DNA of 44,459 nucleotides. Source: Chloroflexota bacterium (lineage in GTDB: Bacteria; Chloroflexota; UBA11872; VXOZ01). The position numbers were made by a program, and so were the translations under genes. The notes under the pieces are model-generated. The model was not told the DNA's origin. It did not search any database and saw only the letters and a program-made list of their open reading frames with translations. Shown piece by piece: positions 21,006 through 44,309 of this stretch. The stretch's first letter is position 1. Each line of letters begins with the position of its first letter. The DNA lies in assembly GCA_028874195.1 (NCBI GenBank), contig JAPPLM010000081.1:1-44459 (forward strand), written 5' to 3'.

Positions 21006-21410
21006 TCACGTCGGCACGATTCTGTTGACCCCCTCGATCTTGTCGAAGTCGGTATCCCAGCTATAGATCTCGGTGATTCCACGGGAACGCATATGAACCG
21101 CCGTGTATGCGTCAGCGAAAGAGATGTTTTGCCGTACGAACAGGGCAAGAGCGTCTAGGCACAGTCGCTTCTCGGCAAACCGGATTCCCGGCAGGGAGAT
21201 GATGGCGCTCACCATCGCCCCTATCCTCTCTCTAGAAACTCCATACGTACGCTGGAGCGTGAAAACTGTTTCGAACACAACCAATGGCGAGGTGACAACC
21301 TTTTCCTCCCCCCGCTCGACTTTCGCCAGCAGGCGCCGCGCGGCCTCTGCCATTTCCAAGTTATCACCCGTGAAATAGCGCAGAAGAATATTGGTATCAA
21401 GAAAGCGCAT
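21006..21410 (-). CDS. vapC: VapC-type PIN-domain toxin
   Basis: A 134-aa PIN-domain endoribonuclease. The four acidic residues are present: D5 ('FLDTN'), E47 ('VVFET'), D100 ('SFADAY') and D119/D121 ('SWDTDFD'). Family members cut tRNA or rRNA when released from the antitoxin. The ATG at 21410 overlaps the end of the antitoxin gene by 14 bases, so translation is coupled. Length is typical. Confidence 0.93.
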   Translation of the reverse strand: MRFLDTNILLRYFTGDNLEMAEAARRLLAKVERGEEKVVTSPLVVFETVFTLQRTYGVSRERIGAMVSAIISLPGIRFAEKRLCLDALALFVRQNISFADAYTAVHMRSRGITEIYSWDTDFDKIEGVNRIVPT

Positions 21411-21678
21411 TGTCTTCGCTTTGCCGGACAGACTCTGCTTCTCTCGCTACTCCTTCTTCGAATGCTGCGCGTTCTTCACGCCACGTCAAGGCCTTTCGCG
21501 AACTTGCTGCGGCGCCAAAGTAGCGGTCCACCCGTGAAGGAACCGGCAGCAAGCGAACTCCATCCGGTGTAAATTCAAACCGCACGAAGTCTCGTGGCTT
21601 GATGCCTAGCTCCTTTCGTATCTCAGCCGGCACGGTTACTTGGCCTTTCTGCGTTACGCGCGTTTCGTATACTCGCAT
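21397..21678 (-). CDS. AbrB/MazE-type antitoxin
   Basis: A 93-aa antitoxin. The swapped-hairpin DNA-binding domain is at the N terminus: 'ETRVTQKGQVTVPAEIRKEL' followed by 'GIKPRDFVRFE'. The acidic, flexible C terminus (about residues 55-93) should bind the toxin. The ATG at 21678 has GGAG seven bases upstream. It is first in the operon with vapC, probably autoregulated through the inverted repeat at 21715-21740. Confidence 0.92.
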   Translation of the reverse strand: MRVYETRVTQKGQVTVPAEIRKELGIKPRDFVRFEFTPDGVRLLPVPSRVDRYFGAAASSRKALTWREERAAFEEGVAREAESVRQSEDNALS

Positions 21679-21869: not shown

Positions 21870-24527
21870 GTGCGCACTGACGAAATTCGCCAGAGATTTC
21901 TCGACTACTTCGCGGAAAAGAACCATCTTGTCATGCCGGGATCCTCGCTGATTCCCCAGGGCGATCCCAGTGTTCTGCTCACCAGCGCCGGCATGCAGCA
22001 GTTCAAGGACTACTATCTCGGCCTTGCCGACCCGCCGCGGCCGCGCATTGCCACTGTGCAGAAGTGCCTGCGCACCGACGATATCGACGAGGTGGGCGAC
22101 CAGTCCCACCTCACGTTCTTCGAGATGCTTGGCAATTTCGCTTTTGGCGACTACTTCAAAGAAGAGGCCATTGCCTTTGCCTGGGAACTCGTGACCGAGC
22201 GATTCCCCTTTGCCAAAGACCAGGTGTGGGCAACCGTATTCGGCGGCCAGGACGATCTCGCCCCCGATGAAGATGCCGAGCGGGCCTGGCTGGCGGTCGG
22301 CGTGCCGCCGGAACGAATCGTGCGCTACCCGGGCTGGGAAGAAAACTGGTGGGGCCCCACCGGTGATTCCGGTCCCTGCGGTCCGTGCTCGGAGATCCAC
22401 TTGGAACTCGCCCCAAATGCCGACGGACATGACTGCCTGGGGCCCGCCTGCCCGTGCGGCCGCTTTCTCGAAATCTGGAATCTCGTTTTCAATCAGTACT
22501 ACTCGTCCGTCGGCCTCAGCCAGATTAGCGCAGACTCGCTAACGCCCTTGGACCGTGCCGGCGTAGACACCGGCGCCGGATTGGAGCGCTGGGCAGTGGC
22601 CCTGCAGGGCGTAGCCACTATCTTTGAAACCGACCTCTTTCAGCCTGTCGTGCAGCAGGCGGCGGAGTTGCTTGGCTGCACCTACGGCGAGAACAACGAG
22701 CAAGACATCGGCATTCGCATCATCTGCGAGCATACCCGGGCGGCCGTTTTTCTCATTGGAGACGGAGTCTTGCCGGGTAATGCGGAGCGCAGCTACGTGG
22801 TGCGGCGTCTGATCCGCCGCGCCATGCGCCACGCCTATCTGCTCGGACGGCGCGAACCCATGCTGGCCGGTCTGGGCAAGACTGTTATTGCGTGCATGGG
22901 CGCCGCGTATCCTGATTTGCGCTCCCGACAAGACTTCATTCTGCGCACCATTACCCAAGAAGAAGAGGGTTTCTTGCGCAACATCAGCCAAGGTCTCCCC
23001 ATCCTCAACACCATGCTGGAAGACGTAGCCCAAGCCGGCAGCGCGGCCCTTGCCGGTGCTGATGCCTTCTTGCTCCACGATTCGTACGGCTTTCCCATCG
23101 AGCTCACACGCGAGGTTGCCGGCAGCCGCGGCATTAGCGTGGACGAAGAGGAGTATCAAGCGGCCCTCCGGGAGCAGCAGGAGCGCAGCCGGCAAAGCGC
23201 CCAGTTCGAGATTGTGCAGAACTTGCCGGTCGACTTTGCCGGCGTGACATTCACCGGATATGAGACCACCAGCGATACCGGCACAGTCGTCGGCATTCAG
23301 CAAGGAGATGAGCGCACTGGCAGGCTGGAGGCCGGAGAAGAGGGACTAGTCGTGCTCGACCGCACACCCTTCTATGCGGAAGGCGGCGGCCAAGTAGGAG
23401 ACACGGGGCGCATTGAGAGCGCGGACGGCGTTTTCAAGGTGGAGACCACCTATTCGCCGCAGCCCGGCCTCATCATTCATCAGGGAAAGGTCACGGCAGG
23501 CGCGCTTGAAACCGACACCTCCGTTACGGCTACCGTAGACGCCGAACGCCGGGCGAATACGGCGCGCAATCACACGGCGACCCACCTCTTGCACGCGGCC
23601 CTGCGCGGCCTGCTCGGCGACCACGTTCAGCAGTCCGGTTCTTTGGTCGCTCCCGACCACTTACGCTTCGACTTTGCCCATCCCGAGGCCCTCACGCGCG
23701 AGCAGATTCAAGAGGTCGAGCAGCGCGTAAACGCACACATTCAAGCCAACGTGCCGACAGAAGTGACGCATCTCGAAACTTCGGAGGCCGTCGCCGCCGG
23801 AGCGCTCGCCCTATTTGGCGAAAAATACGGCGAAACGGTGCGCGTCCTCAGCATCGGCAGCGTGAGCAAGGAACTCTGCGGCGGCACACACGTCTCGGCT
23901 ACCGGTACCATCGGTCTGCTTGTAATCGAGAGCGAGTCCAGTATTGGGGCCGGCTTGCGCCGCATCGAGGCCCTCACCGGCCCCGCCGCCGTTCGTCACA
24001 TCCAGCAGCAGAACGCGCTGTTACTCGATCTCTCCAATACGCTGGAAACGCCTCCCCAAGAGCTTGTGGACCGCACCGCTGCCCTGCGCGAGGAAATCGT
24101 GCAGCAACGTCGGCAGATCACGCGTTTGGAACGCGGCCAAGCGGGGCAGCAGGTGGAGAAGCTTATCGGCTCTGCCGAGGAAGTCAACGGCGTGAAACTC
24201 GTGGTTGGCAGTGTTGACGTCCCGAATGTGGACACGTTTCGCGAGTTGGGCGACAGAATCAAAGACCGGCTCGGTGACTCCGGGGCATTGTTGCTCGGCT
24301 CAGTCCTCAATGACCGTCCCCAGTTCCTCATTATGACAACCAAGGGCTTGTCGAAACGGGGCGTGCACGCGGGCAACCTCGTACGCGAGGTCGGCAAAGC
24401 GGCCGGCGGCGGCGGCGGTGGCAGTCCGGAAACCGCCCAAGCCGGCGGCCGGGACGCCGCCAAACTTCAGGAAGCCTTGGACAGCGGCGCAGAACTCCTA
24501 AGAGTTGCGATAACCGGCGCTACGTAG
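21870..24527 (+). CDS. alaS: Alanine-tRNA ligase
   Basis: An 885-aa class II synthetase that charges tRNA-Ala. Class II motif 1 and the active site lie in the first 400 residues ('TSAGMQQFKDYYLG', 'FFEMLGNFAFGDYFKEEA'). The editing domain has zinc ligands H568 and H572 (HTATH) with C670 and H674 (CGGTH). A coiled coil near 690-760 and a C-Ala domain with a Gly-rich stretch follow. Full length. The start is GTG at 21870 with a weak GAGG upstream. It is divergent from the toxin-antitoxin pair. No T-box leader was seen. Confidence 0.97.
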   Translation: MRTDEIRQRFLDYFAEKNHLVMPGSSLIPQGDPSVLLTSAGMQQFKDYYLGLADPPRPRIATVQKCLRTDDIDEVGDQSHLTFFEMLGNFAFGDYFKEEAIAFAWELVTERFPFAKDQVWATVFGGQDDLAPDEDAERAWLAVGVPPERIVRYPGWEENWWGPTGDSGPCGPCSEIHLELAPNADGHDCLGPACPCGRFLEIWNLVFNQYYSSVGLSQISADSLTPLDRAGVDTGAGLERWAVALQGVATIFETDLFQPVVQQAAELLGCTYGENNEQDIGIRIICEHTRAAVFLIGDGVLPGNAERSYVVRRLIRRAMRHAYLLGRREPMLAGLGKTVIACMGAAYPDLRSRQDFILRTITQEEEGFLRNISQGLPILNTMLEDVAQAGSAALAGADAFLLHDSYGFPIELTREVAGSRGISVDEEEYQAALREQQERSRQSAQFEIVQNLPVDFAGVTFTGYETTSDTGTVVGIQQGDERTGRLEAGEEGLVVLDRTPFYAEGGGQVGDTGRIESADGVFKVETTYSPQPGLIIHQGKVTAGALETDTSVTATVDAERRANTARNHTATHLLHAALRGLLGDHVQQSGSLVAPDHLRFDFAHPEALTREQIQEVEQRVNAHIQANVPTEVTHLETSEAVAAGALALFGEKYGETVRVLSIGSVSKELCGGTHVSATGTIGLLVIESESSIGAGLRRIEALTGPAAVRHIQQQNALLLDLSNTLETPPQELVDRTAALREEIVQQRRQITRLERGQAGQQVEKLIGSAEEVNGVKLVVGSVDVPNVDTFRELGDRIKDRLGDSGALLLGSVLNDRPQFLIMTTKGLSKRGVHAGNLVREVGKAAGGGGGGSPETAQAGGRDAAKLQEALDSGAELLRVAITGAT

Positions 24528-24606
24528 CACGGGCACCCTAACGGCACGAACATCCTTTGACCTTCTCTGCTTTAATGTCGGCACAAATCCATTCTCGCAA
24601 GAAATT

Positions 24607-26676
24607 ATGGACTACATCACAAGAAGAGCGCTTGAGTTACTTCGCCTAGGCACTGGCATTTCCGATGCGACCTTTCGCGAGGGGCAGGAAGAGGCCATCC
24701 GTTATGTTGTGGAAGGCAGAGGCAGGTTGCTCGTCGTCCAGAAAACCGGATGGGGCAAGAGCAACGTCTACTTCATAGCCACCAAGCTGCTACGGGAAGC
24801 CGGCGCTGGTCCAGCCTTGCTCATTTCGCCATTGCTTTCGCTCATGCGCAACCAGATTGAAGCTGCGGAACGAATGGGTGTGCGGGCGCTAACAATCAAT
24901 GCAGGCAATAAAGATGAGTGGACTTGTGTGGAAGGTCGGCTAGAGAACGATGAAGTGGACATTCTTCTCATATCTCCCGAGCGGCTTGCCAACGACGACT
25001 TTCGGGAACGAGTCCTTGCTGGCATAGCAGCGCGCATTGCAATGCTCGTTATTGATGAAGCTCATTGCATCTCCGACTGGGGTCACGATTTCCGTCCTGA
25101 CTACCGTCGGATCGAGAGGGTGGCGCGGACACTGCCAGCAAACATCCGTCTGCTTGCAACGACCGCGACGGCAAACGATCGCGTAATGGATGATCTAAAG
25201 GCGGTGCTCGGCCCCAATCTTCATGTTCTGCGTGGAGAGCTTAATCGGCCGTCTCTCTTGTTGCAAACTATCTTGCTCCCTAGTCTAGGGGATCGGTTAG
25301 CCTGGCTTTCAGACCAACTTGCATCAATTTGTGGGTCAGGCATCATCTATGCCTTGACGATTCGCGATGCTGAGCAGGTAGCCCGTTGGCTTAGATCAGA
25401 AGGACTGAACGCCCAGTGTTACACAAGCAGATCAAGGAACCGGAAAGGGTTAGAGCAAGCGCTCTTAAGAAACCGGGTAAAGGCACTAGTCGCTACAACT
25501 GCCCTGGGCATGGGCTTCGATAAGCCCGATCTGGCATTTGTCATTCATTACCAAACACCGGGATCAGTGGTGCACTACTATCAGCAAGTCGGACGAGCAG
25601 GCCGTGCGTTGAAATCCGCCTACGGCGTGCTACTCAGCGGGACCGAAGACACGGAAATCACGAGCTACTTCATCAATAGCGCCTTTCCAACAAGAGATGA
25701 GGTTGGTGAAGTGATTGCTGCCCTGGAGAACGAACCAAATGGGCTTTCCATTTCTCAACTCTGTGGCGCAATAAACGTCAGCAAGAAGCGCATCGAACAG
25801 ACCACAAAACTTCTGTCGCTCGAGTCACCAGCTCCCATTGCAAGGCAGGGATACAAATGGCAGTTGACTGCGGCGCAACTAAGCGACGAATTCTGGGAGC
25901 GCGTGGAACGACTCACTGCTTTGCGCCGAGGAGAACAGCGCCAGATGCAAGAGTTCGTGGCCCTAAAATCAGGCCATATGAACTTCCTAATTCAAGCACT
26001 GGACGGTAATCCGGAAACCACAGAACTGCCTGATATACCACCGCTGCCCACAAAGCCGCAACAGGAGACGGTGCGGAGGGTAGCTGAATTCCTGCGTCGT
26101 ACTCGTCTGCCAATCAAGCCACATAAAAAGTGGCCGGATGGTGGCCTACCACGGTACGGCTTGCGCGGATTCGTTCGGATTGAGCATTGGGCAGAAACGG
26201 GGCGGGCGCTTTACCAATGGGGAGATGCCCACTTGAGCCGCCTCATTCGCATCGGAAAATACGAACATAATTACTTTGCAGACGATCTAGTTTCAGAATC
26301 TTTCCAATTGCTTCTTGAGTGGAATCCACAGCCGACACCTACTTGGGTAACCTGCATTCCATCACGGCGTCATCCCACACTGGTCAGGGATTTTGCCTCG
26401 CGGCTGGCAACTGAATTGGGACTGCCATTTCGGGATGCTCTCGTAAAGATAGACAACCGACCACAACAAAAAGGCATGGCCAACAGCATTCAACAGGCAC
26501 GCAACGTTGATGGCTCACTCGACGCAGTGTCAGATCTCATTATTCCTGGACCCGTTCTGCTTGTGGATGACATGGTAGACTCGCGGTGGACTCTTACGAT
26601 CGCAACGTGGCTACTACGTACCCATGGTTGCGGGAAAGTATTCCCCTTTGCGCTTGCTACCACTGCAACGGATTGA
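24607..26676 (+). CDS. RecQ-like helicase fused to a C-terminal phosphoribosyltransferase domain
   Basis: A 689-aa protein. Helicase part: motif 0 'FREGQEEAI' (F23, Q27), Walker A 'KTGWGKS' ending K51-S52, DEAH at 150-153 with the RecQ aromatic loop 'CISDWGHDFRPDY', and motif VI QQVGRAGR at 326-333. A winged-helix-like segment is near 365-420. Where RecQ proteins carry four zinc cysteines, this one has 'SGHMNFLIQALDG' and none. Residues from about 575 form a ComF-like phosphoribosyltransferase with PRPP loop 'VLLVDDMVDSRWTL' (650-663). The stop is three bases before the DprA-like gene. Not ordinary recQ; a DNA-processing or defence role is inferred. Confidence 0.9.
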   Translation: MDYITRRALELLRLGTGISDATFREGQEEAIRYVVEGRGRLLVVQKTGWGKSNVYFIATKLLREAGAGPALLISPLLSLMRNQIEAAERMGVRALTINAGNKDEWTCVEGRLENDEVDILLISPERLANDDFRERVLAGIAARIAMLVIDEAHCISDWGHDFRPDYRRIERVARTLPANIRLLATTATANDRVMDDLKAVLGPNLHVLRGELNRPSLLLQTILLPSLGDRLAWLSDQLASICGSGIIYALTIRDAEQVARWLRSEGLNAQCYTSRSRNRKGLEQALLRNRVKALVATTALGMGFDKPDLAFVIHYQTPGSVVHYYQQVGRAGRALKSAYGVLLSGTEDTEITSYFINSAFPTRDEVGEVIAALENEPNGLSISQLCGAINVSKKRIEQTTKLLSLESPAPIARQGYKWQLTAAQLSDEFWERVERLTALRRGEQRQMQEFVALKSGHMNFLIQALDGNPETTELPDIPPLPTKPQQETVRRVAEFLRRTRLPIKPHKKWPDGGLPRYGLRGFVRIEHWAETGRALYQWGDAHLSRLIRIGKYEHNYFADDLVSESFQLLLEWNPQPTPTWVTCIPSRRHPTLVRDFASRLATELGLPFRDALVKIDNRPQQKGMANSIQQARNVDGSLDAVSDLIIPGPVLLVDDMVDSRWTLTIATWLLRTHGCGKVFPFALATTATD

Positions 26677-26679
26677 TCT

Positions 26680-27960
26680 ATGGTGTTAGATGCAGAGTTG
26701 TCAGCCAACACAAAAGCTATACTCCTGCTGACCGCTCCATTGGTCGTCGGCAAGAGTGAGAACTCAGTACGGCCATTGTCGCCAGCAGAATACTATCAAT
26801 TGGTGTATTGGCTCAGGCAGCACGGCCGCGAGCCGGCCGATTTGCTCGAGCGCCAGACAGGCGATGCGTTGGACAAGTCTGAGCTCCGACTTGACCACGA
26901 ACGAATAGGTCAACTGATCCAACGAGGCTTTTTGCTCAGCCAAGCGCTGGAACACTGGCAAGCCCGGGCAATATGGGTGGTTAGCCGAGCAGACCCAAGG
27001 TATCCAAATCGATTCAAGCGACGGCTCGGCAAGAATGCGCCGCCTGTCCTGTACGGCTGTGGAGATGCCGAATTGCTAGACAGCGGTGGGCTGGCCGTGG
27101 TGGGATCCCGTGAGGTCCCTAAAGCATTACTAGGATACTCCGAGGGAATTGGTCAGTTGGCGGCAGCAGCCAAATGTATCATTGTGTCCGGCGAGGCGCG
27201 GGGCGTTGATCAGGCAGCAATGCGTAGGGCATTGGCGGAGGGCGGAAGAGCTATTGGCGTTCTGGCAGGTGGCTTGGAAAACGCTGCAATGGCCCGCAAG
27301 TATCGTGACGCGCTGCTAGATAGGCGGCTTCTTCTAGTTTCTCCATATGATCCACGGGCGCGCTTTAATGTGGGAAACGCCATGCAGCGCAATAAGCTGG
27401 TGTACGCATTGTCCGATGCCGGACTGATTGTGGAATCCGATTACAACAAAGGCGGCACGTGGACTGGAGCCATCGAACAATTGAATCGTCTGCGCTTCGT
27501 ACCAGTTTTTGCTCGCTCCGATGGACAAGCCAGTCAGGGCATCGAGGCTTTGCTACGAAAGGGAGCTCACCCTTGGCCAAATCCCCAAACTCCCTCAGAT
27601 TTTCAGCAGGTTCTAGACGGCAAATTCCTGGCTTGGCAGACTGAGTCTCCAAGGCAAGCAGCGTTGCTGCCAGAAGAAGAGGATGCTGTCCCACCCAGCG
27701 CTGTAGACGAAGCAAGGGAAGTCACGATTCGAGAAGCACAGGCCAAAGACGCCTATGCTCCAGCAGAGACCCCTTCCGATCAACTCTTTTCCAAGGTAGA
27801 GCAGCTACTAGCCTCGATAAATACTCCCACGTCAGAATCTGAGGTAGCAGCATACCTTCACGTTACTAAAACCCAAGCAAGGGACTGGCTAAAGCGACTA
27901 GTCCGCGATGGGAAATACAAGCGGCTAGAGAAGCCCGTTCGTTACGACAGGATCCTTTAG
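26680..27960 (+). CDS. DprA-like SLOG-domain protein with C-terminal winged helix
   Basis: A 426-aa protein. An unrecognised N-terminal region (1-95) precedes a DprA Rossmann fold: 'LAVVGSRE' (138-145), '[12 protein letters not shown]' (169-180), 'VLAGGLE' (194-200), R237-N238 and 'GGTWTGA' (258-264). A variable linker (about 310-365) leads to a winged helix (368-425), also found in DprA. True DprA loads RecA on single-stranded DNA during transformation. The pairing with a RecQ-PRTase, three bases upstream, and the long N terminus suggest a specialised partner. SLOG folds can also bind nucleotide-derived signals. Confidence 0.87.
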
Positions 27961-28101
27961 GAACATCCTTGGTGAAGTTGATCTGCTCAGCCAATTGAGC
28001 CCCCAACTCACAACACCTAGTTTCTTGTCAAATCCTGTCAGTTTCAGGCATCGTATAGAGTGAGCTAAATGACTAGCATCCCATATCTAAGGAGTAACGG
28101 T

Positions 28102-29322
28102 ATGTCACTGACTGCAGAAGAACAAGCATTGTTGAATGGTGAGAAGCGCAACCTGCCTTTTCTGCCCGCTCTCGGCGGGTGGTACAACGAGGAAGAGGTG
28201 GAGGCGCTGACGCAAGCGCTTCGCGAGAGCATGGACTGGAAAGCGGGCTTCACCGGCAACGACATCTCCGAATTCGAGCGAGAATTCGCAGAATACTGCG
28301 ATGTGAAGCATGCCTTTGCCGTGAATTCGTGCGGCACCGGCCTCGACGGCGCGATGCAGGCCCTCAACCTCGGCCCGGAAGACGAAGTTATAGTGCCGGC
28401 CATTACGTACATAGCGACGGCACAAGCAGTCGTCGGCGTCGGCGCCAAGGTCGTGCTGGCAGAGTGCCATGCCGACACGTTTAATATCGACCCCAATGAC
28501 GTGGAACGCCGCATGACGGCAAATACCCGCGCGATCTTGCCCGTGCACAATAACGGCCTCTCCGCCGATATGGATGCCTTGGCCGACATCGCCGAACGGC
28601 ATCCCCACGCTATCCACGGGCCGCCTCCCGTCATTGCCGACGCCGCCCGCGCCGCCGGCGGCGGCTACAAGGGCACGAAGGTCGGCAAGAAAGGCGCCAT
28701 GACCATCTTCAGCTTCCAGACCACCAAGAACATGACGACGCTCGGCGAAGGCGGCATGGTGACGACGGATGATGACGACTACGCCGCCTACATCAACAGC
28801 AGCCGCTCCTTTGGCTGGGGTCTGCAGGGCTGGGGCACCAACTACCGCCTGACCAAGCTGCAGGCCGTCGCCGGTAGAATCCAACTCGCACGCCTCGACC
28901 AAATGAACGACCTGCGCCGCGACCGCGCGCTGCTGCTCTCCGATTGCTTGGCCGATGTGCCCGGCGTCATCGTGCCGCAGACGCCCGAGGGCTACGATCA
29001 CGTGTGGTACGGCTACACGGTGCTGCTGGCGCCCGAGTGGGCCGGTGAGCCGCGCGATAAGGTCAACGAGCACATGAAGTCGGAATACGGCGTTGGCAGC
29101 GGTGTCATGAATTCCGCCCTTCCCGACTACGATTCCGTATTGAACAAGATGGGGCACACGCCGGAGGACGTGCCGGTTTCCACCGACATTGGTCGCCGCC
29201 TCTTCTGCCCGTCGCTCCATCCGTTGATGAGCGACGACGACGTACGCTATGTCGCGGCTTCCATCAAGGCAAGCATGGCAACAGTGGCGGGCAAAGTTGG
29301 CGCTGCTGCCGCTGCTCGCTGA
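28102..29322 (+). CDS. DegT/DnrJ/EryC1/StrS-family aminotransferase
   Basis: A 406-aa PLP enzyme of the sugar-aminotransferase fold. The ligand-binding start 'NSCGTGLDGAMQALNLG', 'PAITYIATAQAV', 'IADAARAAGGG' (the PLP aspartate) and 'FSFQTTKNMTTLGEGG' (Schiff-base lysine, about K209) are all present. The frame is open eleven codons further, but the ATG at 28102 has AAGGAG seven bases upstream. Members aminate keto-sugars or make aminohydroxybenzoate-type products. No nucleotide-sugar genes adjoin, so the substrate is open. Confidence 0.92.
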   Translation: MSLTAEEQALLNGEKRNLPFLPALGGWYNEEEVEALTQALRESMDWKAGFTGNDISEFEREFAEYCDVKHAFAVNSCGTGLDGAMQALNLGPEDEVIVPAITYIATAQAVVGVGAKVVLAECHADTFNIDPNDVERRMTANTRAILPVHNNGLSADMDALADIAERHPHAIHGPPPVIADAARAAGGGYKGTKVGKKGAMTIFSFQTTKNMTTLGEGGMVTTDDDDYAAYINSSRSFGWGLQGWGTNYRLTKLQAVAGRIQLARLDQMNDLRRDRALLLSDCLADVPGVIVPQTPEGYDHVWYGYTVLLAPEWAGEPRDKVNEHMKSEYGVGSGVMNSALPDYDSVLNKMGHTPEDVPVSTDIGRRLFCPSLHPLMSDDDVRYVAASIKASMATVAGKVGAAAAAR

Positions 29323-37470: not shown

Positions 37471-38727
37471 ATGTCAGAGTCAGTGGACGCTGATATCGGT
37501 GTAGTGCTGCTGGCCGCGGGTGAGTCGCAGCGCATGGCGATTTCGTCGAAAACGACGTCTCCGAAGGCGCTGCTGCCGTGGTTCGGGCGTCCGTTGATCC
37601 AGTACCAGCTTGAACAGCTTGCGGCAGTCGCCCCCGCGCACATTGCTCTTGTCACCGGCTTTCATGCCGAGCGCGTAGCGCCGTATGTCAACACTGTGGC
37701 CGGGGTCTATGTTGTGCAGAATCCGGACCCCGCGCGCGGAAGATCATCCTCCATCGTGCACGGTGTGCAGTCTCTTCCCGATACGCTATCTGCTTTCGCC
37801 ATAGTCAATGTGGACCAGCCCTGCACCGCCTCGATTCTCACACAACTCATCGCTGCAAGCGCCACAGGAAGCAAGCTGATTACGCTTCCCCGCTACCGGG
37901 GAAAACGGGGGCATCCTCCGCTCTTCGCAAACGCCCTGCGGAGTGCATTGCTGCGCGTGCGCGAGGAGACCCAGGGCCTGAAAGCGGTCACCCGCTCCCA
38001 CCGCGCAGACACGGCGTACGTGGACATAGACGACCCCAGCGTCGTGTGGAACCTCAACACTCATGCCGACTATGAGCGAGCACAGCAACAGCACATCCTG
38101 CTTGCTACCACGAATAGCGCTAAGACCGAGCATCTTGCCTGGCTACTCGAGGACGTGCCGCTGCGGCGTCTCACGCTGGCAGAAGCGAACCTCAGCCAGG
38201 TTTCCCCGCCGCCCGAGACTCACACAACACTGCAAGCCATAGCCGAGAGCAAAGCGCTCGCGTGGTCGCGGGCCTTTGGCGGGCTGGCGATCGCCTCAGA
38301 CGGCGGCATTGCTATCCCGGCGTTAGGCGACGCCTGGGAAGAGCGGCTCACGGCCCGCTTTGCGGGCAGCCACGCCACAGACCAGCAACGCGTAGAGGCG
38401 CTGCTGGCGTTGCTGCGGCCTCACAAGGGTAATGAGAGGCGCGCGTACTTCCGCGAATGTGTGTCCCTGGCAAACAACGGAACTCTCTTACAGTCATGGA
38501 GCGCCGAAAGCACGCCGGGCATGATCACCGCATCCTACCGACCGGAGCAGCTTGTCCCAGGATTCTGGCTGCTCACGTTGTGGTGCGACCCCCAAACCGG
38601 CAGACGCTTTGGCGGGCTTGCGCCTGATGATCCGGCGTACCTGGACGGCGCTTGGGGCCGCATCAAGCCCAAGGTCCAGCAGTTCCTCAAAAGCTACGTC
38701 GAGCGTACCCTTAACCCGGCAACCTGA
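37471..38727 (+). CDS. Fusion of MobA/MocA-like nucleotidyltransferase and HAM1/RdgB-like domain
   Basis: A 418-aa two-domain protein. Residues 8-205 form an NTP_transf_3 domain: 'LLAAGESQRM' (13-22), K32 and 'NVDQP' (D115), with 'GHPPLF' as in MocA molybdenum-cofactor cytidylyltransferases. Residues 208-415 resemble non-canonical purine NTP pyrophosphatases: 'ILLATTNSAKTEHL' and 'IASDGGIAIPAL', matching the family's ATxNxxK and ADDSGLxVdAL. The first Asp of that acidic pair is Ser here, so activity is uncertain. It is coupled to the lipoprotein gene (three bases) and overlaps mutY convergently by 17 bases. Confidence 0.82.
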   Translation: MSESVDADIGVVLLAAGESQRMAISSKTTSPKALLPWFGRPLIQYQLEQLAAVAPAHIALVTGFHAERVAPYVNTVAGVYVVQNPDPARGRSSSIVHGVQSLPDTLSAFAIVNVDQPCTASILTQLIAASATGSKLITLPRYRGKRGHPPLFANALRSALLRVREETQGLKAVTRSHRADTAYVDIDDPSVVWNLNTHADYERAQQQHILLATTNSAKTEHLAWLLEDVPLRRLTLAEANLSQVSPPPETHTTLQAIAESKALAWSRAFGGLAIASDGGIAIPALGDAWEERLTARFAGSHATDQQRVEALLALLRPHKGNERRAYFRECVSLANNGTLLQSWSAESTPGMITASYRPEQLVPGFWLLTLWCDPQTGRRFGGLAPDDPAYLDGAWGRIKPKVQQFLKSYVERTLNPAT

Positions 38728-41372: not shown

Positions 41373-41570
41373 GAATCGGGAGCTGCTTAGATTCCTCCCC
41401 GTGCAAAGCGCGGGGCTGCTGCCCGCTCGAAATGGCATGAACCGCTGCCCTGCCAAGACTGCAAGCCTATATCTACTAATTTCCTCTCTTGCTATGTTTG
41501 CAAGGGCGCGCGCCTGTGATAATTTGTTCTCGTTTGTCGACACAGCAACTCAGCATGAGCCCGTTTCTTG

Positions 41571-44309
41571 ATGTTTGGCTACACGTTTCTGAATCGCGGC
41601 GGCACCACCTACTCCTTCCGCGTCAGCGGGCGCGGCGACGGCGTCCTGTATAGCACCTCCTACGGCAGCACGACCTCCACCTCCGGCAGCACCTACTCAT
41701 GCCCGCGCCCCACGCCCACACCGGTACCACCGCCACCAACGCCTGTCCTTGAGGTAAGCGCTACCTCCCAGACCAGCATCACGCTGCGGTGGGAGGCGCG
41801 CGCCGGCGTCAACTACACCCTGCAGTACTCCAGCGACGGCGGCAACACGTGGCATTCCGCCGGAAACTCCATCGCGGGGAGAGACGGCAAGGTGAGCAAA
41901 GAGGTGACGCTGGCCTGCGGCACGGCATATACCTTCCGCGCCAGGGGCAGGGGTACCGGCTCACCTTTTAGTACAGCCTATAGCGCGTGGTCGTCGTCGG
42001 AATCCGGACGCACCACCGGCTGCGACCCGCCGCAGCCTATTATGAACGCCATCGGCGCTACCACCCAGACCAGCATCACCGTCAGTTGGACACTGCCACC
42101 CGGCTCTGGCGCCGTCGCCTCCTACAAGCTGGAGCGCTCCGCCGATAACGACAACACCACCTGGCCGCAGCCTAACAATGATAATTTCCCCAACTATGAC
42201 GGGCACGTCATAGAGGGCATCACGGAAACCATGCAAGAGGTGACCGGCCTCACCTGCGGCGTCACCTACTACTTCCGCGTCAGCGCCAAGGGTGGCGGCA
42301 GCACGACCTACGCCGACACCCACGGCCCAACGTCCGACCCACCGGCATCGGGCAGCACGCTGCCGTGTCTCACCCCGCCGCCTGCGCCCAGTAATGTGAG
42401 TGCTTCGATCATCGTGGGCACCGGCGCCAATACGTACGGTGTCGACTTGCTATGGGGACTGCTGCCAAGGGCCGCCTCCTTCAAGGTGGAGCGTTCTGAC
42501 GATAATGGTGTCACTTGGCCGCAGCCTAACGACCCTGGCTATGACGGGCACGTCGCAGAAGGCATTACGGGGACGCTGCACTCGGTCACGGGGCTGGTGT
42601 GCGACAACGACTATGTCTTCCGCATCAGCGCGTTGGGTGACGGCACAAAGTACCTAGCGGTCTACGGCCCTACCACGCTTGTGACCCGGTACGTGTCAAT
42701 CGCAGGCCAAAGCGCCAGCAGCGATGTAGACGATTTTCCTTGCACGACGCCCACTCTTTCTGTTATCCCTCTATCTGTTTCACCTCATCTGGGACGCAGA
42801 GTAAGGATCGAGTGGGAGTATAGGATGGGTTCGAGGTATTTTCCGGAATACAGACCGATCCAAGAAGATGGAACCGAAGCTGGCTGGAAGAACTTGTACA
42901 TCAATGGAACCGTTGGAGAATTTATTGTACTGGACTTTGACGATGACACTGATCTTGGTGGCTTTTTCAACGAAAAAGAGGGATTTGGCTTTCGTGTCAA
43001 GGCAAGTTTGGGCGGACAGGAAACCGACTATAGGGAGATAATACTCATAGATACCCCCATTCTAAGGACCGAGGTAGATTCGTCCGGTACAGTTAAGCTC
43101 ACCTGGACGGATATCGATACCGTCCTCGGTGGAAATGGACTATACACGGTCGGTGCGTATACAGCCCATGTGCGCAAGTTTGGCGAGTCGCCTGCAGACG
43201 TCCCACACATTGCAGGAAACGTGCCGCACACGAGCAGGTATTGGCACCCGACACAATTTGTAGAATCGAAGGTTTATCCCGTTGACGCCGACACCTTGGA
43301 TGACCCCAACACCATGGATATCTCCGGTCTAGCGGCTAACGAGGTCTATGCCGTTCAATTGGTTGCTGCGGTGACGAAAAAGGGGAATGCAATCCCGACG
43401 GCCGTATTTGCGGTTCGAGACTCGTATGTGTGGACTTCGCATCGTGCTGTCACGGACGGCAACCGGGTAGCTTCCTTTCCTCTAGAGGCTAGGCTGAAGA
43501 AGGACGCGCAAGGCAATTTCACCTACGCCTACCACATTTGCGAAGACACGTTCACCTTTACAACCAAGTGGAGCGAATGGGAAAAGCTGATTGTGCATGC
43601 TATGGGCCAGTGGCAATTGGCAACGGACAACCTGATCACAATGAGCTACCTGGAGGATATGGACTGTGCCAACTATAGCGACGTTTTTACAGATGTAGCA
43701 GCCGAAATTATAGCGAGTGGGCACACACCGGACATTTTACATGTGCGCAACTTTGTAACAGGCCTCAGCTACTATGGGAACTTCACTGAGGAGGACAAAG
43801 CCAAGAATGAGATCATCCTAGTGGATACAGGCGCACTCTTGTTTAACGACGCTATACAGAGTGCTGCGACATTCCCAGAACTTGCTAGAGAGATTGGATT
43901 GTCCCTGTGCGTATTTGGAAATGCATTCGGGTGCGCAATTTCCGGAGGCCAAACTCGGGATATACTGCTGAACTACGACAAATTTACATCCGACGCACTG
44001 GCGATCCCTGGCGGAGCTGGCAGTGACCCCGAACCCCCTGACAGAGGCGACGCGCCTTTCAACAAGTGCGCGCACCACAATACAAGGAATGCAGACAATG
44101 CATACTTGACAGTGGTTCACGAAGGCGGACACGTCGTCGGCATTGGTGGCGCCAATGATAGAGACCCGATGGACCCCAAAGAATCGGAGCACAACGGTCA
44201 CCCCAACTACCGATTGCTTAATTCTATTGTGAATAAGAGAGATAGGGCGGGTTGTACGCCCAATCCGCTGGACATCATGGCGATATTCGCAATTTACCAG
44301 GCGCGATAG
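41571..44309 (+). CDS. FN3-repeat protein with C-terminal metzincin-like domain, N terminus missing
   Basis: A 912-aa protein. It opens inside a fibronectin-III-like domain ('TYSFRVSGRGDG') followed by a Thr-Pro spacer. About three more FN3-like domains follow ('TSITLRWEARAG', 'TSITVSWTLPPG', 'VSASIIVGTGAN'), then beta-rich domains. The C terminus holds 'VVHEGGHVVGIGG' (HExxHxxG, zinc site near residue 850) with Gly where metzincins have the third His, and 'HPNYRLLNSIVN' in the Met-turn position. No signal peptide: the 5' end is probably lost by deletion, frameshift or rearrangement next to repeat remnants. Confidence 0.8.
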   Translation: MFGYTFLNRGGTTYSFRVSGRGDGVLYSTSYGSTTSTSGSTYSCPRPTPTPVPPPPTPVLEVSATSQTSITLRWEARAGVNYTLQYSSDGGNTWHSAGNSIAGRDGKVSKEVTLACGTAYTFRARGRGTGSPFSTAYSAWSSSESGRTTGCDPPQPIMNAIGATTQTSITVSWTLPPGSGAVASYKLERSADNDNTTWPQPNNDNFPNYDGHVIEGITETMQEVTGLTCGVTYYFRVSAKGGGSTTYADTHGPTSDPPASGSTLPCLTPPPAPSNVSASIIVGTGANTYGVDLLWGLLPRAASFKVERSDDNGVTWPQPNDPGYDGHVAEGITGTLHSVTGLVCDNDYVFRISALGDGTKYLAVYGPTTLVTRYVSIAGQSASSDVDDFPCTTPTLSVIPLSVSPHLGRRVRIEWEYRMGSRYFPEYRPIQEDGTEAGWKNLYINGTVGEFIVLDFDDDTDLGGFFNEKEGFGFRVKASLGGQETDYREIILIDTPILRTEVDSSGTVKLTWTDIDTVLGGNGLYTVGAYTAHVRKFGESPADVPHIAGNVPHTSRYWHPTQFVESKVYPVDADTLDDPNTMDISGLAANEVYAVQLVAAVTKKGNAIPTAVFAVRDSYVWTSHRAVTDGNRVASFPLEARLKKDAQGNFTYAYHICEDTFTFTTKWSEWEKLIVHAMGQWQLATDNLITMSYLEDMDCANYSDVFTDVAAEIIASGHTPDILHVRNFVTGLSYYGNFTEEDKAKNEIILVDTGALLFNDAIQSAATFPELAREIGLSLCVFGNAFGCAISGGQTRDILLNYDKFTSDALAIPGGAGSDPEPPDRGDAPFNKCAHHNTRNADNAYLTVVHEGGHVVGIGGANDRDPMDPKESEHNGHPNYRLLNSIVNKRDRAGCTPNPLDIMAIFAIYQAR
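42164..42575 (+). repeat. Internal FN3 domain repeats
   Basis: Two stretches, about 42164-42236 and 42516-42575, share 'GCCGCAGCCTAAC', 'CTATGACGGGCACGTC' and 'GGCAT.ACGG' in the same order. They mark duplicated FN3-like domains. G+C content falls after about 42,700, where the repeat section gives way to the peptidase section. Confidence 0.75.

Follow-up and report, generated by a model that had tools for sequence, protein, structure and literature searches.

A PsyrTA/RqlHI operon in a Chloroflexota bacterium, and signs of an altered phosphoribosyltransferase in relatives that lack its antitoxin

A stretch of 44,459 nucleotides from a Chloroflexota bacterium (contig JAPPLM010000081.1, hereafter 'the window') carries two adjacent genes, rqlH and rqlI, which were compared with their relatives in other bacteria. 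Judged by sequence, the pair is almost certainly a copy of an already described system, PsyrTA or RqlHI, in which RqlH is the toxin and RqlI the antitoxin. The comparison suggests that bacteria devoid of rqlI usually carry an altered active site in the C-terminal phosphoribosyltransferase (PRTase) domain of RqlH. We think it rather likely that a cell can dispense with the antitoxin only once this ComF-like PRTase is disarmed. On this view, RqlH proteins that occur alone, among them the near-universal RqlH of Actinobacteria, would be domesticated toxins with an intact helicase and a change at K551, in the Q621-N633 loop or at an aspartate of the phosphoribosyl pyrophosphate (PRPP) loop. If true, this would explain the frequent occurrence of rqlH without rqlI, and it would name candidate catalytic residues. 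The window locus contributes little by itself, being one more intact PsyrTA from a lineage without cultured members; the pattern across relatives weighs more.

The window is contig C26 of the 81 contigs that make up the 3.5 Mb assembly of its host (genome G000). Locus L172 of genome G835, sampled from the phylum of the host, agrees exactly in its helicase region with a Chloroflexi record (L093), which likewise places the host in Chloroflexota. Both open reading frames (ORFs) start with ATG and lie on the same strand; a 3-base spacer (TCT) separates the stop of rqlH (689 amino acids) from the start of rqlI (426 amino acids). The parts of the operon are as follows.

24607-26676, + strand: rqlH/psyrT, predicted toxin, RecQ-like superfamily 2 helicase with a C-terminal PRTase modelled as ComF-like (PADLOC PsyrT, Pfam/NCBIfam)
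24607-25716, + strand: helicase core, residues 1-370, with Walker A TGWGKS (47-52) and DEAH (150-153) (motifs invariant in the family alignment; PDB matches to RecQ)
26104-26673, + strand: PRTase domain, residues 500-689 (AlphaFold, VIA structure match, comF hidden Markov model (HMM) on homologues)
26257-26259, + strand: K551 (counts given below)
26467-26505, + strand: loop with Q621, K622, Q630 and N633, near-invariant with rqlI and lost in solo Actinomycetes
26554-26598, + strand: PRPP loop VLLVDDMVDSRWTLT, residues 650-664; D658 is the counterpart of D663 in E. coli F11 RqlH (alignment and PMC4670107)
26680-27960, + strand: rqlI/psyrA, predicted antitoxin of the DprA/SLOG family (PADLOC PsyrA, fold matches)
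26680-26964, + strand: RqlI residues 1-95, a helical domain at the N-terminus that survives decay of the SLOG motifs (loci L099 and L100)
26956-27570, + strand: DprA/SLOG domain, residues 93-297, with GSR (142-144), SGxARGxD (170-177), MxRN (235-238) and GGTWxGA (258-264) (Pfam and alignment)
27769-27957, + strand: winged helix of RqlI, residues 364-426 (AlphaFold)

RqlH matched PADLOC PsyrT (PDLC03928) with an E value of 2.8e-263 and 873 bits over residues 5-688, and RqlI matched PsyrA (PDLC03927) with 5.4e-133 and 442 bits over residues 7-423; the next PADLOC system for RqlI, ShosA, reached 95 bits. RqlH has a DEAD helicase domain (Pfam, E 3e-23) followed by Helicase_C, and belongs to the RecQ family (TIGR00614, 230.5 bits for a cutoff of 219.8), falling below the cutoff for canonical RecQ (TIGR01389, 259 versus 640 bits). 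A middle region separates the helicase from the PRTase, and the C-terminal Pribosyltran match (E 2e-4) was under Pfam's cutoff. RqlI matched DNA_processg_A/DprA at residues 93-297 (E 2e-38), with a weak C-terminal winged-helix match, and likewise fell below the cutoff for canonical DprA (TIGR00732, 99 versus 191 bits). In its AlphaFold model the DprA/SLOG fold is preceded by an extra helical domain and followed, at the C-terminus, by a winged helix (predicted local distance difference test, pLDDT, 91); the best fold match was ShosA (8zva), then DprA (3uqz). The winged-helix region was absent from 36 of 103 rqlI homologues, a handful of which are truncated at contig ends. The PRPP loop is intact in the window RqlH (DDMVDSRWT, with D658 present), and gene order, spacing and strand agree with the described PsyrTA/RqlHI operons.

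An earlier note on this stretch, made from its letters alone, had described a RecQ-type helicase with a C-terminal PRPP-loop domain and, three bases on, a DprA-like protein with an extra N-terminal region and a winged helix; ORFs, Pfam, TIGR00614 and AlphaFold agree with it on both genes. Its reading of the pair as a two-gene defence module stands as to the class, defence or toxin-antitoxin, but the system was a known one that it had not recognised. The pair was accordingly rejected as a novel defence cassette, PADLOC naming both genes as PsyrTA. PsyrTA was reportedly described by Sberro et al. in 2013. The RqlHI pair of extraintestinal E. coli was studied by Russell and Mulvey in 2015 (PMC4670107). 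The possibility that these genes are the sole recQ and dprA of their host, which the earlier note wanted checked, was rejected as well: contig C41 encodes a separate DprA with a better score, and the genome holds three further RecQ-like helicases.

The PRTase domain was predicted with high confidence (pLDDT 94), and its model is ComF-like, an assignment that is new here. Its best solved match was ComFC of Helicobacter pylori (7p0h, by VIA; Z 15.5 over 158 residues, root mean square deviation 2.7); other structures scored lower (ShosT, Z 11.7; APRT/PurF, about 11). The comF HMM matched 52 of 69 homologous PRTase domains (best E 2e-8), while the window domain itself, compared with the TIGR00201/GntX models, gave no comF match at E 0.1. 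A PDB sequence search with the PRTase returned weak matches, mostly to PRPP synthetases at the PRPP loop; because ComFC was not among them, the assignment rests on structure and on the HMM matches of homologues. NCBI annotation assigns a detached fragment of E. coli rqlH to the ComF family. DDxxDSxWT is the form of the PRPP loop peculiar to this family, with W661 invariant, and K551 may correspond to a conserved ComF lysine. The general likeness of the pair to competence proteins was already known: a 2017 analysis of polyvalent proteins groups it with ComFA/ComFC (PMC5512222), and a comparison with the comF operon and DprA had been made for RqlHI (PMC4670107).

RqlH loci were classed according to whether rqlI was present (111 loci, 'rqlI+'), absent or degenerate (42 loci, 'rqlI-'), or unknowable at a contig end. 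A six-residue PRTase core (K551, Q621, N633, D654, D655 and D658, in window numbering) was intact at 102 of 111 rqlI+ loci and at 1 of 42 rqlI- loci, raw counts that are affected by relatedness, the solo Actinomycetes being one clade. With Actinomycetes left out, the core was intact at 102/111 and 1/13 loci (Fisher P = 2e-10). Residue 551 was lysine at 108 of the rqlI+ and 2 of the rqlI- loci. The helicase domain served as a control: there, rqlI- proteins kept 0.93 to 1.00 of the positions conserved among rqlI+ proteins, and in the PRTase domain 0.67 to 0.97 outside locus L062 (mean for Actinomycetes, 0.69). What sets the two classes apart is thus found around the active site of the PRTase, the helicase being spared, which points to specific residues to mutate: K551, Q621, Q630, N633, D655 and D658.

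The changes at individual rqlI- loci were D658L (L051), K551E with Q630R and D658E (L083), K551R with D655E (L096), and K551R, a mild change, at L105, L174 and L183. Where RqlI was degenerate (L099 and L100), K551V/F and D658N were found; the RqlI partners at these two Planctomycetota loci (L099:8082-8882 and L100:6049-6885) retain the N-terminal domain, but neither GSR nor SGxARGxD is left in their DprA fold. The residue positions were picked after viewing the data, except for a Pseudomonadota set found after the pattern had been set. Three loci of this set, with no rqlI in the fetched regions (13.5 to 18 kb), had Y, Y and T at position 551; eight new rqlI+ loci all had K. Five rqlI+ loci of the first set had D658 replaced by G, A or N, as expected if it is the toxin that decays first.

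Absence of rqlI is never certain in draft genomes, and L083 and L105 have only 1.0 to 1.4 kb of downstream sequence. A profile search for hidden RqlI gave nothing beyond DprA-type matches in the solo Actinomycetes, L083, L096 and G984, and no matches in L051 and L105; in genome G853, a different contig carries an RqlI-like fragment broken by a stop. On a tree of the helicase region only, there were 8 or more changes of rqlI status, 6 of them on branches with good support. When independent pairs were taken at random, the PRTase core changed with rqlI in 5.2, against it in 0.0 and showed no difference in 0.8; the sign test gave a median P of 0.06 (range 0.03 to 0.38), which is consistent but underpowered. 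Russell and Mulvey reported that 55% of rqlH-bearing strains were without rqlI, and saw no major sequence differences explaining non-toxicity (PMC4670107).

E. coli populations break the toxin, not the antitoxin. On the chromosome, the main form is flanked by gntU and yhgN. Of 5,426 E. coli genomes, 1,629 had rqlI, with a coverage of at least 80% in every case; rqlH reached this coverage in 1,621 of them, leaving 8 broken rqlH and 0 broken rqlI, in counts that include clonal relatives and by a test that would miss small rqlI frameshifts. In E. coli O157:H7 TX 265-1 (L230:1601-4927), the annotation gives rqlH as a pseudogene with a frameshift and an internal stop, and rqlI is intact; in E. coli g1-11, the N-terminus of rqlH is lost and rqlI is whole. 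A second form is embedded in a type I restriction locus, where the genes for the S and R subunits flank it (E. coli 1283, L223:2700-12779). It was present in 53 E. coli genomes, always as a pair, one of which had an insertion sequence in rqlH and a whole rqlI. As a side observation, the two-piece rqlH alignment seen in TX 265-1 recurs in other O157-type genomes listed.

Published genetics bear on the function of the pair. In E. coli F11, the PRTase domain of RqlH is genotoxic without RqlI, and the PRPP-pocket residue D663 is required, D663A abolishing toxicity (PMC4670107). RqlI binds RqlH and rescues the cell; rescue needs its N-terminal part and DprA region, not the helix-turn-helix, and RqlI cut after residue 250 still rescues partly, the antitoxin role depending on the N-terminal domain (PMC4670107). 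Deleting both genes gives no fitness phenotype, and losing rqlI alone is toxic (PMC4670107). A related DprA-PRTase pair acts against T7 and lambda. We conclude that the window pair is quite probably a toxin-antitoxin operon of the PsyrTA/RqlHI kind, whose role is probably abortive defence against phages. It very probably behaves as a toxin-antitoxin pair in this host; that phage defence is the selected role is a likely proposition, held with moderate confidence.

The following mechanism may be proposed. RqlH would bind DNA and translocate on it by means of its RecQ-like motor, bringing the PRTase to DNA. Left unrestrained, the PRTase would use PRPP (or a nucleotide) and generate a DNA lesion or a toxic product, followed by the SOS response and growth arrest; its direct action on DNA is a tentative suggestion that may well not hold. 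RqlI would restrain the PRTase by direct binding to RqlH through its N-terminal domain, and its DprA fold could plausibly read unusual single-stranded DNA (ssDNA) made by phages or in DNA damage and so release the toxin; we regard ssDNA sensing by RqlI as possible, short of probable. Helicase delivery and restraint by RqlI draw on the published genetics and on conservation here, while we infer the phage trigger, the substrate and chemical target of the PRTase, and activity in this host.

Three observations weigh against the picture drawn above. L062:5974-8079, from a Parabeggiatoa metagenome-assembled genome, is a plain exception, with a fully canonical PRTase and no rqlI detectable in the assembly. 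In one systematic test, an E. coli PsyrTA gave its native strain no protection. Finally, the local neighbourhood of the window cassette consists of housekeeping genes. The insertion site is described by three features.

21870-24527, + strand: alaS, left flank (Pfam tRNA-synt_2c, E 2e-163; synonymous divergence, dS, between G000 and G002, 1.15)
24490-28020, + strand: inserted cassette, approximate extent relative to the empty-site congeners G001, G003, G004 and G005
28069-29322, + strand: DegT/DnrJ aminotransferase gene (degT), right flank (Pfam, E 3e-90; dS 0.92)

Within the genus, two of six genomes (G000 and G002) have the cassette, in an alaS-degT gap of about 3.5 kb occupied by rqlHI; in the four empty-site genomes, the gap is 258 to about 550 bases, with nothing between. 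Between G000 and G002, dS was 0.48 for rqlH and 0.37 for rqlI, lower than for the flanks, a gap of which differing codon constraint could account for part. G004 is nearer to G000 than G002 is (alaS 89% versus 79% DNA identity), yet it is without the cassette. The empty sites and the lower dS argue for movement of the cassette after the flanks had diverged, and transfer between lineages is the simplest reading. The end of alaS and the bases just past its stop (24500-24550, ACCGGCGCTACGTAGCACGGGC) are identical in G000 and G002 and not in G004; transfer was therefore probably by recombination in the flanks. This shared stretch looks as if the cassette came in together with the alaS tail. G+C was 0.533 for rqlH and 0.549 for rqlI, versus 0.623 for alaS and 0.617 for degT, and at third positions 0.53 versus 0.73 to 0.77, a gap far beyond chance. 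The hand counts from which the earlier note had suggested transfer (29, 38 and 34 of 60) are exact, and the empty sites, low dS and low G+C bear its suggestion out.

The nearest 80 loci in a genome collection span more than 20 phyla and are almost all pairs, with rqlI always downstream on the same strand, which answers the earlier call to look for conservation of the pair. Among sampled genomes, carriers were 36/400 in the host phylum, 6/398 in Bacillota, 9/392 in Planctomycetota and 16/398 in Pseudomonadota. In Actinomycetes rqlH was nearly core (123/198 genomes), and no rqlI adjoined it or was found elsewhere in 29 of 29 inspected rqlH genomes. No full-length relative was found among 50,697 phage records; four plasmid records had an RqlI relative. 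As to defence neighbours, which the earlier note had wanted scored, the window cassette is set among housekeeping genes and not in a defence island, but some relatives adjoin restriction, BREX or SoFic genes; no enrichment is claimed, because the scan had no matched control.

A purely selfish addiction cassette, without anti-phage benefit, is an unlikely explanation, although horizontal spread, an antitoxin that is not the first to be lost in E. coli and the lack of protection in one native-host test all fit it; PsyrTA is listed as a defence system, the related DprA-PRTase pair protects against phages, and some relatives sit within restriction loci. The earlier note had favoured a module that senses or makes a nucleotide ligand. 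Read as signalling, with a nucleotide produced by the PRTase and detected by the SLOG protein, this is quite unlikely. Both folds do handle nucleotides, and SLOG domains sense ADP-ribose isomers in Thoeris (PMC11204291), but the partial rescue by truncated RqlI, the need for its N-terminal domain and the two Planctomycetota partners that keep this domain without SLOG motifs argue against it. No measurement here supports the making or sensing of a ligand; in the literature the second protein is the antitoxin and the PRTase the toxic part.

That the pair is a non-toxic housekeeping repair operon (a second RecQ plus DprA) is improbable: the near-core, solo rqlH of Actinomycetes does imply that the helicase can serve a domestic function by itself, but the window copy, its PRTase core intact, belongs with the rqlI+ proteins, and the cassette, recently exchanged, is absent from four of the five other genomes of the genus. 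A competence module, in which a fused ComFA-ComFC-like protein and DprA process incoming ssDNA in transformation, is highly improbable in spite of the ComF-like PRTase, the DprA-like partner and the ComFC-DprA contacts described in the literature, since the distribution is patchy with horizontal movement, the pair occurs in E. coli, a species without normal competence in which double deletion has no fitness phenotype and rqlI loss is toxic, the motor is RecQ-like and not ComFA, and the host has a separate DprA.

Three other features of the window may be recorded. A VapBC-like pair (PIN-domain toxin and AbrB/MazE-type antitoxin; 21006-21678, - strand) immediately precedes alaS, some 3 kb away from rqlHI, in DNA that is also low in G+C (0.53). 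An ORF of 418 amino acids (37471-38727, + strand) joins MobA-like NTP-transferase and Ham1-like (ITP/XTP pyrophosphatase) domains, a fusion that looks unusual. DNA of low G+C (0.51 to 0.56) at the end of the window holds an ORF of 913 amino acids (41568-44309, + strand) with a fibronectin type III domain.

Among known systems, the window pair shares with PsyrTA/RqlHI both genes, their order, domain composition, the PRPP-loop residue and an overlapping or closely spaced operon. Its copy comes from a Chloroflexota host and its activity is predicted; no structural difference setting it apart was found. ShosTA likewise combines a DprA-like antitoxin (8zva) with a PRTase toxin (8zvc/8zvd, Z 11.7/11.4), but differs in that RqlI scores as PsyrA rather than ShosA. 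The solved ShosT chain has about 420 residues, and ShosT is not known to be fused to a RecQ helicase. Solo Actinomycete RqlH, such as that of Mycobacterium smegmatis, reportedly described by Ordonez et al. in 2012, has the same helicase-PRTase architecture and about 43 to 46% identity to the window RqlH; it is without rqlI, and K551, Q621, Q630 and N633 are replaced. The ComFA/ComFC/DprA proteins of natural transformation also comprise a helicase, a ComF-type PRTase and DprA. The window pair differs from them in the RecQ-type motor fused to the PRTase, in its predicted toxin-antitoxin behaviour and in its PRPP loop (D-S-R-W-T, versus T-T-G-T-T in ComFC). With a toxic domain that appears nearest to ComFC, the pair would tie competence-type ssDNA handling to a toxin.

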